Positions 30,259-39,564 of a stretch of DNA of 64,000 nt are shown piece by piece (within the stretch, counting starts at the first letter, position 1; the number at the start of each line of letters is the position of its first letter). Made by a program: the position numbers and the translations under genes. The stretch comes from Candidatus Neomarinimicrobiota bacterium. Lineage in GTDB: Bacteria; Fidelibacterota; Marinisomatia; Marinisomatales; S15-B10. The notes under the pieces are model-generated. The model was not told the origin of the DNA. It saw only the letters and a list, made by a program, of their open reading frames with translations, and did no database searches. The DNA lies in NCBI GenBank assembly GCA_012964825.1, contig DTTI01000084.1:62001-126000 (forward strand), written 5' to 3'.

Positions 30259-31758
30259 CTACTTCAAGTAGAGAACTTTCCGGGAGTGTCGCTCAATCAT
30301 GCCATGAAAGTTGGTCCGCTCCAGTGTGATAATATAGAGTCCGCCGGCAAATTGAGATGCATTCCAAGGTAATTCAAAGTGACCTGCCGGGAAAGGGCCT
30401 CTAGCAAGCATCTCCACTTCTTTGCCTAGCAGATCGAGGACTGAGATCTTTATATCGGAACGCTCATTGAGAGTGAAGCTAATCTTTGTGGAGCTATTGA
30501 AGGGTGAAGGATAGACTGATAGAAGGCTGTAGCCTTCAGGCGTAATATTATCAGCCACCCGTAGAGGTTGGCTCTTGTCCGTTAGACCCTGTATCCATGC
30601 AAACCCACTGAAAAGCAGTAACGCGGCTGCTTCTCCATGTGTCCCGCAGTCGCACTCGAACAATTCAACCTGGGTAGCGCCGTTTTCCTGGAATGTTTCA
30701 TAAGCCAGTCGTGAATTTTCCACAGGGACCAGATCATCACCAGTGCTGTGAAACAGACGCATGGGTGACTGAGGCGCCCAGTCGTAGAGATCGTTATCAC
30801 GCAACGCCTCACGAAGGGGGTGATTTTCATCTTTGCTGAACGCATCTACAACGTCCGGTTCCATAATCTCCATGGGTACTGCAGGCATGGCAGCGTTTAT
30901 TTCGCTGGATGAGTGGGTTCCATCGAACAGTGGCGGGAGCAATGTGGCATATTCTTCCTTGAGAAAATCGGATGGACTTTCCCAGAGATTATAGTATTCG
31001 TCAAATGCGAAAAGCGTATAGGGGAGATAGAAGGGTGAGGGATACTCTTCTCCCGATAGCATGAGATCAACCATGACCCCAGACATATCATAGGCACCCG
31101 CTCCCGGGGCTGAGGCTGTTATGGTGAATTCTTCCGGGTGTTCTTCTTCTATCATCTTGTGGGCAGCCATCATGGTGTAGCCGCCTTCTGAATAGCCCGT
31201 GAGAAAAAGCTGTCCGTTAGTCTCTAACCCCTCTTGGTCGCAGAAAGTACGGGTTGCTCTAAGCATGTCGATAATGACGGTGGCGTTCGGTTTGGCCATC
31301 TGATAGGGGTGGAAAAGTTCAGATTCACCCAAACCCAGATAGTCGGGTATGACCGTCAAGTAACCAGAAGAAGCAGTCCACATAGCAACAATTCCGTACC
31401 CACCATCAAACCCTGTGGCCGAGGACGCTTCGTCCCGTTTTATCATGGTTCCCGATTGAAAGCTGAGTGTGGGTAGCGCAAAGGTCGGTTTTTTCGGGGC
31501 TGTAACCGATCCTGATGCGATGGTGGGCTCTCCGTTAGGGTCGATGGTTTCATAAATTAGCTTATAAATGGATGCGCCGTATGTGGCTCTAAAGAAAATG
31601 ATTGAACCTGACAGTGCCTGGTCAATCTGGTATGCTGTTTTGTGCTCTAAAAGTTCTGATGATATGAGACGGCCCCGGTCACCAGTTAGGGATTGACTAC
31701 CAACCAGATTGAGCACAGTGAAAATTGTGAGTATAAACAGTCTGTGTAAATTCTTCAT
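30259..31758 (-). CDS. Secreted alpha/beta hydrolase with C-terminal sorting domain
   Basis: A 499-residue secreted hydrolase. Signal peptide at 1-22, then an alpha/beta-hydrolase domain of the secretory-lipase type: PDYLGLGES, the nucleophile elbow GYSEGGYTMMAAH, an acidic residue in STGDDLVP, and His in CGTHGEAA. From about residue 415 a beta-sandwich module begins (YPSPFNSSTKISFTL ... LDLLGKEVEML ... GLYIITL) like the type A sorting domain of T9SS cargo/FlgD-like Ig folds. It implies export across the outer membrane in an FCB-type bacterium. Likely esterase or lipase; the substrate is unknown. Confidence 0.85.
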   Translation of the reverse strand: MKNLHRLFILTIFTVLNLVGSQSLTGDRGRLISSELLEHKTAYQIDQALSGSIIFFRATYGASIYKLIYETIDPNGEPTIASGSVTAPKKPTFALPTLSFQSGTMIKRDEASSATGFDGGYGIVAMWTASSGYLTVIPDYLGLGESELFHPYQMAKPNATVIIDMLRATRTFCDQEGLETNGQLFLTGYSEGGYTMMAAHKMIEEEHPEEFTITASAPGAGAYDMSGVMVDLMLSGEEYPSPFYLPYTLFAFDEYYNLWESPSDFLKEEYATLLPPLFDGTHSSSEINAAMPAVPMEIMEPDVVDAFSKDENHPLREALRDNDLYDWAPQSPMRLFHSTGDDLVPVENSRLAYETFQENGATQVELFECDCGTHGEAAALLLFSGFAWIQGLTDKSQPLRVADNITPEGYSLLSVYPSPFNSSTKISFTLNERSDIKISVLDLLGKEVEMLARGPFPAGHFELPWNASQFAGGLYIITLERTNFHGMIERHSRKVLYLK

Positions 31759-36372: not shown

Positions 36373-37158
36373 ATGGATATTGCCACACTCGTAGGAATTC
36401 TTTTAGGGCTTGGCTTCACTATTGGGGGTATTGCCATGGCCGCTATAGCAGCTGGTGCTTCAGCCATGGTCTTTGTTTCCGGTTCCAGTTTTGTCATTGT
36501 ATTCGGGGGGATGATTGCTTCCGTATCGGTGGCCTTTCCTCTTTCAGAAGTACTGAAACTGGGGGCAGCCATGGGTGCTGTTTTTAAAGGCAAAGACGAA
36601 AAGCTTGGCGGGCTGGTAGACGAAGCGGTTGATTTGGCCGATGTGGGGCGAAAAGGCGCTGCGGACCTGGAAAAAGGTGTTGAAAGCGTCAAAAATTTTT
36701 TCTTCAGAGACGGAGTTCAAATGGTGATAGATGGATACTCAGAAGAAGAGATTGTAGACATTCTTAATACACGAATTGATTACAGAGAGATCCGTGAGAA
36801 GAGTCAGGCTGAACTTTTTAAAACCATGGGAAACATGTCGCCGGCTTGGGGAATGATTGGTACGCTTATTGGCCTGGTTATCATGCTGTCCGGTTTCGGC
36901 GGTGAGGGCGGTGGTACTGACGCCCTTGGAATTGGTATGTCCGCAGCTCTTATCACTACTTTTTATGGAGCACTTATGGCAAATCTTTTTTTCTTGCCCA
37001 TGGCAGCAAAACTGAATTCACGTATTAGCCAGACAAGCACGGCACAAGCCATGCTAGTGGAAGCATCACGGTTGATCCACCAGCGCAAACACCCTCTTAT
37101 CGTTAGAGAAAAATTAAATTCGTTCATTCCTCCGAAGGAGTGGAAGAGAGAAGAATAA
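36373..37158 (+). CDS. motA: MotA/PomA-type stator protein
   Basis: Four-helix stator subunit, 261 residues, clearly MotA/PomA rather than TolQ/ExbB. It has MDIATLVGILLGLG at the start, FPLSEV after helix 2, the cytoplasmic loop FFRDGVQMVIDGYSEEEI, GNMSPAWGMIGTLIGLVIML in helix 3 (Pro157), and AALITTFYGALMANLFFLP in helix 4 (Pro209). The Thr in GMIGT (Thr164) and ITT (Thr195/196) match the PomA-type Na+ stator rather than H+ MotA, where Ala is usual. The cytoplasmic loop keeps charged residues where MotA contacts FliG. It sits in an operon with MotB, FliF-like and FliG-like genes but no other flagellar gene. Confidence 0.92.
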   Translation: MDIATLVGILLGLGFTIGGIAMAAIAAGASAMVFVSGSSFVIVFGGMIASVSVAFPLSEVLKLGAAMGAVFKGKDEKLGGLVDEAVDLADVGRKGAADLEKGVESVKNFFFRDGVQMVIDGYSEEEIVDILNTRIDYREIREKSQAELFKTMGNMSPAWGMIGTLIGLVIMLSGFGGEGGGTDALGIGMSAALITTFYGALMANLFFLPMAAKLNSRISQTSTAQAMLVEASRLIHQRKHPLIVREKLNSFIPPKEWKREE

Positions 37159-37163
37159 TCCTC

Positions 37164-37958
37164 ATGGCAGCTACTGCCCAAGAAAAGAAAAAATATATAG
37201 CTAAAGGCCGTGACCAGGTAGATGAAGGCCTGCCTGGCTGGTTTGGCACCTTTGCTGATATGATGACTTTGCTCTTTGCGTTCTTCGTATTGCTTGCGGC
37301 GATATCTACAATTGATCCGGTAAAGCTTCAGGAAATGGCTGATGGTATGGGTAAATCGGTAGGCAAAAAGGAAAAATTGGACAATCAGTCCATGTCCCTG
37401 TCTGATGTGAAGAAAGCGGCAGAAAAAATGGTAGAAGAGATGGAAGCTGATCCTGAGACGGGAGAAAAGCCCGTAGAGGTGACAACTGGGCCCAAAGGTG
37501 TTACTATCGGCATATCCTCAGATATCAGTTTCTCCTCTGGTTCTGCTAACCTTAAGTCAGGGATCGTGGACGTTCTAGACAAAATTGTGCCCACCATTCA
37601 GTCTTCCTATTTCATGGTGGCTGTAGAAGGACATACAGATACAGATATACTTCCTCAATCCATACAGTCAATATATCCCTCAAACTGGGAACTTTCAGGC
37701 GCCAGGGCTTCTGCTGTGGTAAGACAGCTGATAAATATGGAGGTGTCCCCCACGAGGCTTCAATCTGTCGGTTATGCGCAATATGTGCCGAGAGATCGAC
37801 CACAAGACAGAGTAATAAATGATGAGCTCATCGCAGAGCTTAATGCTACAAAAGAAATGAAAGCCCGAAATCGTCGCGTGGAAATCACCTTTCTTGCGTC
37901 CGGTATTTCGGGATCACAATTGTCTAAAATCGAGGAGGAAACTCCCGTAAAACAGTAA
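37164..37958 (+). CDS. motB: MotB/PomB-type stator protein with OmpA peptidoglycan-binding domain
   Basis: Ion-conducting stator partner, 264 residues from ATG 37164. One N-terminal membrane helix carries the essential acidic residue: WFGTFADMMTLLFAFFVLL, with Asp32 at the same number as in E. coli MotB, which supports this start over the in-frame GTG at 37140. A plug/linker of about 60 residues precedes an OmpA-like domain (about 110-250) with VEGHTDT, NWELSGARASAVVRQL and NRRVEI, expected to bind peptidoglycan. The start is 5 bp after motA. It completes the stator unit of the operon. Confidence 0.92.
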   Translation: MAATAQEKKKYIAKGRDQVDEGLPGWFGTFADMMTLLFAFFVLLAAISTIDPVKLQEMADGMGKSVGKKEKLDNQSMSLSDVKKAAEKMVEEMEADPETGEKPVEVTTGPKGVTIGISSDISFSSGSANLKSGIVDVLDKIVPTIQSSYFMVAVEGHTDTDILPQSIQSIYPSNWELSGARASAVVRQLINMEVSPTRLQSVGYAQYVPRDRPQDRVINDELIAELNATKEMKARNRRVEITFLASGISGSQLSKIEEETPVKQ

Positions 37959-37986: not shown

Positions 37987-39564
37987 ATGAAAATGCGGAT
38001 TATTAAGTCCTTCATAGGACTCACACTCATAGCGAGCATAACGGCCCAGGAGTCAACCTACCTAGCCCAGAAATTGATGCTCGAGAACGACCTGCGCAGC
38101 CGAATCGAATCGGCTCTGCAGAAAATCATGGACGATCACAGGTATGTCCTTGATGTGACTGTGGACCTTAAGTTCACGCCTACTATAACGGAGGAAGTGA
38201 CCTTTCGTCCGGCAGGTTCTGATGATGCGAAGTCAGCAGTCATGTCAGGCAGACAGGAAGCGGAAAGATCCATTCCCATCACATCTGAATCTCGAGAGCC
38301 ACGCTCACGGATGACAGGTATTCCCATACCGGGATTCGATTTTCAGAGTATGGAAGATGAAGAGCCTGTGGTGGAATCTGTAGCTGAAGAGCCAGCTGAT
38401 ATGCTGGTGGCAGCACCTAAAGGTCCCAGGGAAGGTTCTCAGATTTTGAGTCAGTCCTACAAGGATACGAAAGCTTCAGTTCCTATTATTGAGAGACTGG
38501 AGGTGAGCTGTATTTTGCCCGAAGGTTCTGCACCTGAGCTCATTGAAAACGTAAGACAGATTATTATGGTGGCATCTCATTTTGACAGAAATCGCGGAGA
38601 TATGCTTTCTGTGATGACCGCCTCTTTCCGTCAAAGGAAAGATGAGCGGACGGCGGAGTCTATCATACTCCGTTCTATTGCTGCAAAGATCGATCATCTG
38701 GAGGAGAAACAGGCTGATGCTGAGGCGCAGGTTGCGGAAGACTGGCGTATGGAACTTGAGAGTTGGAAGGGTGAAGAAACCCGGCGCCGGGAAGAAGAAC
38801 GTGCTGTCTGGCGAGCTGAACTGGATCGACTTGAAAATGACCGGATGACCAGGGAATTTGATAACGAGCGGAAAGCATTGCTTGAAAGAGATTCACTCCG
38901 GATGAACCAGTTGACTGATGAGATCTCTCAACTCAGAGATGTTCTTACGGGGCCTCAGCTCTCTGAGGAAGAGCAAGCAGTGGCTGTGCAAGCCATGACC
39001 AGCAAAGAAGTGGAGAAAGCTGCACTGGATTCTCTGATTGAAGAAAAACTGGCCATGCTTGAACAGGCACAAAAAGAAATGGAAAGCATGGGAGGCGGGA
39101 TGAGTAATATTCCCATTTATCTCATGAGTGCCATTTCATTGTTAGCTGTTCTGGCCTTGGCAGCGGTGATTCTGTTCAACGGACGTTCCAAACCCAAGTA
39201 TGTTATGCCACCGCCATGGATGATGCAGCCACCGAAAAAAAAAGCAATGAAAAATAGTAACGGGGATGTTTCAACAGCTACCACAGCTACCACAGCTACA
39301 ATGGCTGCCCCTGTTGCGGCACCGCCCACCCCGGCTCCGGCATTTCAAGAGGACCCCAGTGTTCTCCAGTCTGAAGTGAGTAAAACTCGCGAGTCTGTTG
39401 TTAGCATGAGTGTGGGTGACCCAGAGGTGGCCACTTCCGTAGTTCAGGATTGGTTAGAGCAAGAAGCACCTCCTCCGCCGGAAGAACCGGCTGCTACACC
39501 GGCACCGGCTCCAGAGGCTGAAGAGGATGATGGTAAAAAGAAGAAAAAGAAGAAAAAGAAGTAG
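37987..39564 (+). CDS. FliF-like MS-ring protein, shortened and rebuilt (RBM3/collar, coiled coil, TM, FliG-binding-like tail)
   Basis: 525 residues. N-terminus is a signal peptide (1-21) instead of FliF's first membrane helix. Residues about 24-75 (YLAQKLMLENDLRSRIESAL, LDVTVDLKF) and 155-214 (SQSYKDTKASVPIIERLEV, VASHFDRNRGDMLSVMTASF) match the FliF collar/RBM3 region, where flagellar FliF has 'R.L.VAV' and 'GFD..RGD.V.V'. RBM1 and RBM2 are absent. A charged coiled coil (about 220-368) is inserted, then a TM helix (376-397), a Pro/Ala-rich cytoplasmic linker, and a short helix region at 460-492 (VSKTRESVVSMSVGDPEVA, VVQDWL) like the FliF tail that binds FliG. It ends with nine lysines. An AGGGAGAG ribosome site precedes ATG. 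Likely an inner-membrane ring; the homology is remote but consistent. Confidence 0.8.
   Translation: MKMRIIKSFIGLTLIASITAQESTYLAQKLMLENDLRSRIESALQKIMDDHRYVLDVTVDLKFTPTITEEVTFRPAGSDDAKSAVMSGRQEAERSIPITSESREPRSRMTGIPIPGFDFQSMEDEEPVVESVAEEPADMLVAAPKGPREGSQILSQSYKDTKASVPIIERLEVSCILPEGSAPELIENVRQIIMVASHFDRNRGDMLSVMTASFRQRKDERTAESIILRSIAAKIDHLEEKQADAEAQVAEDWRMELESWKGEETRRREEERAVWRAELDRLENDRMTREFDNERKALLERDSLRMNQLTDEISQLRDVLTGPQLSEEEQAVAVQAMTSKEVEKAALDSLIEEKLAMLEQAQKEMESMGGGMSNIPIYLMSAISLLAVLALAAVILFNGRSKPKYVMPPPWMMQPPKKKAMKNSNGDVSTATTATTATMAAPVAAPPTPAPAFQEDPSVLQSEVSKTRESVVSMSVGDPEVATSVVQDWLEQEAPPPPEEPAATPAPAPEAEEDDGKKKKKKKKK

Follow-up and report, generated by a model that had tools for sequence, protein, structure and literature searches.

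Outside flagella, an RBM3-type ring protein is known from sporulation (SpoIIIAG). According to a 2025 survey, 11% of non-motile species have flagellar rotor proteins without a filament, and these proteins may serve an alternative function (PMC12199754). One paper describes GldLM, the motor of type IX secretion, as lacking homology with MotAB (PMC13104615). We analysed a seven-gene operon in a 64,000-nucleotide stretch of DNA (the window, taken as a whole) from Candidatus Marinimicrobia, or Neomarinimicrobiota, now Fidelibacterota, a phylum whose members live mostly in the ocean and the subsurface. The genes follow each other in the order Areg, Btpr, Cbar, MotA, MotB, FliF* and FliG* (Table 1). 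We propose, with a probability of roughly 0.7, that FliF* serves as rotor scaffold in an ion-driven trans-envelope motor which stands alone and whose genes make up this operon. A search confined to open-access papers returned no description of such an operon.

Table 1. Genes of the operon and segments of FliF*, in positions of the window
Feature	Position	Strand	Evidence
Areg, 377 aa	32887..34020	+	Signal-peptide-like start, CarboxypepD_reg beta-sandwich (Pfam, E=1.6e-10)
Btpr, 323 aa	34017..34988	+	Secreted coiled coil and C-terminal TPR, YbgF/CpoB-like; TPR and tol_pal_ybgF matches
Cbar, 459 aa	34990..36369	+	Outer-membrane beta-barrel (about residues 47-276), periplasmic helix (about 306-380) and TPR (about 383-451) in AF2
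MotA* stator subunit, MotP/PomA-like	36373..37158	+	Pfam MotA_ExbB 1.2e-26; best PDB match MotA, E about 5e-50
MotB* stator subunit	37140..37958	+	MotB_plug 1.6e-15, OmpA 2e-11; PDB MotB match
FliF* signal-peptide-like start (residues 1-20), mature start at invariant Q21	37987..38046	+	Conserved from Q21 onward; predicted
FliF* first half of RBM3 (residues 21-75)	38047..38211	+	TIGR00206, PF08345, AF2, Foldseek
FliF* collar insertion (residues 76-151) with invariant PIPGF (residues 113-117)	38212..38439	+	PF08345, alignment of relatives
FliF* second half of RBM3 (residues 152-214), ending in RGDxLSxMTASF	38440..38628	+	Pfam, alignment, AF2, Foldseek
FliF* charged coiled coil (helices 219-321 and 327-370)	38641..39096	+	AF2, pLDDT about 90 over most of it
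FliF* single TM helix (residues 377-398)	39115..39180	+	Hydrophobic maximum in all relatives, AF2
FliF* predicted FliG-docking tail (residues 457-491)	39355..39459	+	PDB FliF C-termini as best matches; alignment; motif kept phylum-wide
FliF* Pro/Glu-rich linker and poly-Lys C-terminus (residues 492-525)	39460..39561	+	Sequence; character conserved in relatives
FliG*, 310 aa	39578..40510	+	FliG_C 1.4e-22, FliG_N 5e-14, FliG_M 4.3e-9

FliF*, the sixth gene (37987-39564, forward strand, 525 aa), starts with ATG 28 nt after the motB stop and is preceded by AAAGGGAGAG, a purine-rich ribosome-binding site. A preliminary description of this ORF had claimed that it keeps the collar and RBM3 segments of FliF, and HMM, profile and fold searches all found them. 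Residues 44-214 match YscJ_FliF_C (PF08345, RBM3 and collar) with an E-value of 1.5e-6, the only Pfam model above the cut-off, and 20 of 21 relatives match it as well (best E-value 1e-12). The NCBIfam model TIGR00206 (fliF) aligns through its positions 239-305 of 555 with residues 27-92, at 38.8 bits against an equivalog cut-off of 129.75 bits. The span of the Pfam match and an alignment that begins at model position 239 indicate that the homology of FliF* with FliF starts at RBM3. PF01514, the model of RBM1/RBM2, matched neither FliF* nor any other protein of the window's genome in our Pfam search, which agrees with the claim that these two modules are missing. We then examined the AF2 model, a monomer built on a 21-sequence alignment. 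Its confidence is modest over the full length (pLDDT 68, pTM 0.29), with low values in the collar loops and tails, and reaches a pLDDT of about 85-90 in the RBM3 elements; beyond the coiled coil and the TM helix, it contains tail helices at residues 457-474 and 479-491. All 18 Foldseek matches of this model in the PDB at E<=1e-3 are FliF RBM3/collar structures. These and the HMM results on RBM3 rule out a chance coiled-coil match.

The N-terminus had been described as a cleavable-looking signal peptide. In 26 relatives from the same order, a short hydrophobic stretch is followed by an invariant Gln, from which conservation starts. Our hand count in these sequences found Ala, Gly or Ser at position -1 in nearly all and a small or aliphatic residue at -3. 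Judged from these residues, the N-terminus fits a cleavable signal peptide, an uncleaved anchor being the other possibility. In other classes, the starts are less clear in a few sequences. The long charged coiled coil that had been noticed before the single TM helix is borne out by the AF2 model, where it takes up about 160 residues. RBM3 and the TM helix are 119-208 residues apart in 40 of 41 sequences, with 164 as a common spacing, and 44 residues apart in the remaining one; about 30-48% of the residues in this stretch are charged. FliF* proteins vary between about 390 and 670 aa across the phylum with the domain order unchanged, so the arrangement is indeed found in other genomes. The one with 44 residues between RBM3 and TM helix (L122:8381-9550, 389 aa) has almost no coiled coil; this one family counts against the stalk idea discussed below and is a natural test of it. 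Near-identical FliF* fragments, 59% identical to the query, occur in two MAGs (G002 contig 14 and G025 contig 77; L080 and L081), and one of these bins is probably mixed.

The tail of FliF* had been likened to the FliF-FliG contact. With a 50-aa family consensus of the tail as query, the best two of 177,635 PDB sequences are the last 28 or so residues of FliF (E=0.03-0.06, which is weak alone, though the match falls where it should). The direct alignment of tails pairs ESVVSMSVGDPEVATSVVQDWL of FliF* with EEVIKHAQENPEDSAKLIRSWL of a flagellar FliF from the same phylum, and the motif is conserved in every class examined. FliG*, encoded next to FliF*, has an intact FliG_N domain, and its presence beside a FliF-like tail counts for the predicted docking of the two proteins.

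We next consider the other genes. Areg has a conserved region at residues 140-260 and a C-terminal FxLYD/CARDB-like domain ending in DWEEYE, and is strongly conserved in 15 relatives. Btpr is conserved in position and duplicated in several other classes. By their predicted features both are secreted-type proteins, and Areg is an envelope component. Cbar has a mean pLDDT of 65 in AF2, and its Foldseek matches are outer-membrane barrels (FapF, OmpT, the T9SS chain 6h3i_F and others) and TPRs. Its mean column identity is 67-68%, within a range of 44-75% for the operon proteins across the order. MotA* has invariant R93, K94, E100 and P157, and the Arg-Lys...Glu positions align with those of Clostridium MotA. 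MotB* combines a TM helix carrying an invariant Asp (TFADMMTLL) with an OmpA-like peptidoglycan-binding domain; its true start is probably an ATG near position 37164. The downstream genes for a tryptophanase and a glutamate-cysteine ligase were judged to be unrelated neighbours, as was a gene of 376-385 aa found upstream in other classes.

In the window's genome, which is 98% complete, searches that were positive in control genomes found no FliP, no FliM/FliN C-domain (FliMN_C) and no RBM1/2 protein. Two other genomes (G014 and G018) encode a canonical FliF of about 533 aa, FliM/N and FliP, none of them on the contig that carries the operon. A tree of 50 FliG sequences places 41 FliG* in one group (support 100/97) and six flagellar FliG in another. 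The FliM-binding motif EHPQ...R is intact in none of the 41 FliG* and in all six flagellar FliG of the same phylum. The torque residues K264 and R281 (the latter as Lys or Arg) are retained in 41 of 41. The FliG residues D288/D289, which partner MotA in E. coli, are lost in most FliG* and kept in nine, and a conserved acidic residue adjoins that place; their loss counts against the proposed motor. A truncated or decayed flagellar FliF is ruled out by the conserved length and domain order, the phylum-wide operon and the co-existing canonical FliF; among the orthologues inspected, none has RBM1/RBM2 upstream.

We surveyed 175 genomes of the phylum, each at least 80% complete. FliF* occurs in 130 of them and FliP in 32; FliF* is found without FliP in 101 genomes and together with it in 29. 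FliF* and Areg are both present in 129 genomes and both absent in 37, with nine discordant. The agreement in 166 of 175 genomes, a co-occurrence inflated by shared ancestry, indicates that outer-membrane parts are retained, or lost, jointly with the motor parts. In the neighbourhoods of 20 relatives from the same order, the seven-gene order is identical on every contig of sufficient length; some few relatives have no detectable Btpr or are broken by contig ends. The same order, often with a doubled Btpr, is found in 15 loci of other orders and classes (L115-L119, L121-L126, L129-L132) and also in L147. FliF* and Areg are missing together in families f13 and f15 and in genus g56, including streamlined genomes of about 1 Mb that keep SprA. 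Of the matches in a pattern scan of genome contigs, nearly all are named as Neomarinimicrobiota and the others have no phylum in their names; the patterns were too specific to speak for the wider distribution.

RBM3, a TM helix and FliG are joined in one protein, headed by a signal peptide, at two loci (L139 in G055 and L145 in G146). The first (L139:2308-11202, G055 contig 94) encodes a fusion of 466 aa, MotA, MotB and two receiver-domain proteins, and its cluster also contains an FG-GAP protein tagged with the type IX signal CHU_C, and a barrel with TPR that resembles PorV/FadL. At the second (L145:7580-11149, G146 contig 45), a fusion of 509 aa is followed by two secreted coiled-coil/TPR proteins, with no adjoining MotAB. 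The fusions show that evolution joins exactly these parts in the same order, and they have the topology that the rotor model needs, which counts for the model. We think it fairly probable that minimal rotors are a wider family, marked by these variant loci, as part of a joint reading in which a flagellar-type rotor and stator drive an outer-membrane device without export, rod or filament. The operon would then encode an undescribed class of rotary machine, conserved in the phylum alongside or instead of flagella.

In the proposed motor, FliF* subunits would form a ring in the periplasm through RBM3 and collar. Their coiled coils, as a stalk or a cage, would connect it to single TM helices, likewise arranged in a ring, below which the cytoplasmic tails would dock FliG-N. 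The minimal rotor thereby made of FliF* and FliG* would do without the MS-ring base (RBM1/2), the C-ring (FliM/N) and the export gate. The stator of MotA* and MotB*, anchored to peptidoglycan through its OmpA domain, would push on FliG-C and presumably turn the rotor as in the flagellum. Torque might be handed over to Cbar, Btpr and Areg near the outer membrane, since the coiled coil could place the RBM3 ring as much as about 20-24 nm higher (164 residues at 0.15 nm each, if not folded back). A straight helix of about 24 nm is close to the width of the periplasm. The break that AF2 places in the coiled coil at residues 322-326 would permit a fold-back, which would roughly halve the reach. For a possible contact between FliF* and Cbar, our sole basis is gene order and a co-occurrence confounded by shared ancestry. 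The idea of a periplasmic FliF* stalk that still docks FliG, put forward in the preliminary description, is strengthened by the adjacent, co-conserved FliG* and by the two fusion loci, and stays a prediction from sequence.

If this model is true, the FliF-FliG-MotAB rotor core can function independently as a module, with neither a flagellum nor a type III secretion system around it. This would bear on the minimal rotor, on the order in which motor parts arose and on the way in which outer membranes might be powered in phyla without GldLM. The operon is a concrete and testable candidate for the alternative function proposed in the survey, and may explain why many non-swimming bacteria retain flagellar rotor genes.

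What the motor drives can be read in more than one way. It is possible, if doubtful, that it energises the type IX translocon or surface adhesins in place of GldLM, which would be compatible with a trans-envelope motor. SprA_N was found in 170 of 175 genomes and GldM_1st in only one, on a contig that is likely a Bacteroidota contaminant. GldM is absent from the window's genome and, in this phylum as a whole, type IX secretion seems to be without its known motor. However, the sensitivity of the GldM search is shown by that single match only, with no control genome positive for GldM or SprA. The clustering of the FliF-FliG fusion, MotA and MotB with the CHU_C-tagged FG-GAP protein and the PorV/FadL-like barrel with TPR in L139 also favours this reading, as do the T9SS motors of Flavobacterium, which are proton-driven and needed for secretion (PMC8986121). 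On the other hand, SprA also occurs in families without the operon (f13, f15 and others), and thus the operon cannot be a general SprA motor. The main operon is also without any T9SS gene. We dropped the co-occurrence with SprA as proof of a T9SS role, since SprA is near universal and present without the operon. An anticorrelation of GldM and FliF* in G118 was likewise dropped: the gldKLMN contig of this MAG (L133, G118 contig 9; 5% contamination) looks like contamination from Bacteroidota. Elsewhere in the window, a secreted hydrolase-like protein (30259-31758, reverse strand) has a type IX type-A sorting tail that is weak and below the threshold (18.2 against 23 bits).

It is rather unlikely that the motor works in the manner of Tol-Pal, with MotB* on the peptidoglycan, the stalk and the barrel serving to tether or remodel the outer membrane for division or stability. 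Btpr resembles YbgF/CpoB, and the components of the operon span both membranes. The phylum has no convincing TolB, with matches in 21 of 175 genomes that are all weak (E-values from 5e-6 to 1e-3), and the window's genome has no TolB match. Yet the operon is absent from well-assembled genomes of about 1 Mb (f15), which are also without TolB among the matches listed, and Tol-Pal has no FliF/FliG-like rotor.

An unrecognised, export-free, flagellum-like device for swimming is very improbable. The stator and rotor core are complete, but the operon has no filament, hook, rod or export gene. Furthermore, Fidelibacter multiformis IA91, a cultivated member of the phylum with a genome of 2.79 Mbp, is described as non-motile (PMC11652737), and is putatively the organism of G042, a single-contig genome in which the operon is present and FliP absent. 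A functionless, degenerate remnant of a lost flagellum, an explanation also offered in the survey for the 11% of non-motile species that keep a rotor protein without a filament (PMC12199754), is scarcely credible against open frames, a conserved order, 44-75% mean column identity across the order, a separate FliG* clade and true flagella beside the operon in 29 genomes.

The proposed trans-envelope motor can finally be set beside the known systems. SpoIIIAG gave no Pfam or top Foldseek match with FliF* and is without a FliG tail. Tol-Pal is alike in its working, with an ion-driven motor, a peptidoglycan-binding OmpA domain and a YbgF/CpoB-like TPR protein, all predicted here from genes. It differs from the operon, which has a FliF/FliG rotor and a barrel and no TolB that we could find. 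GldLM/PorLM, too, is alike in its working: a proton-driven motor acts across the periplasm on parts in the outer membrane (PMC8986121), which the genes suggest for the operon as well. The operon, in contrast, has a FliF/FliG rotor, in a genome without GldM. Compared with the flagellar rotor and stator, the EHPQ...R motif is lost, FliM/N is missing from the window's genome, the D288/D289 region is shortened and an outer-membrane barrel is part of the operon. The FliG N-M-C domains, the torque Lys and Arg, the MotB Asp with its OmpA domain and the MotA fold are all shared. Flagellar FliF has RBM1/RBM2 and a first TM helix, whereas FliF* has neither module, probably lacks that helix and starts with a putative signal peptide instead. 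FliF* also has a coiled coil of usually 119-208 residues before the TM helix, a Pro-rich linker and a poly-Lys end, and no linkage to an export apparatus. It shares with flagellar FliF the RBM3 and collar, the TM helix and the C-terminal FliG-docking helix motif. All parts of the motor are recognisably homologous to flagellar ones, and the machine as a whole may deserve a class of its own.
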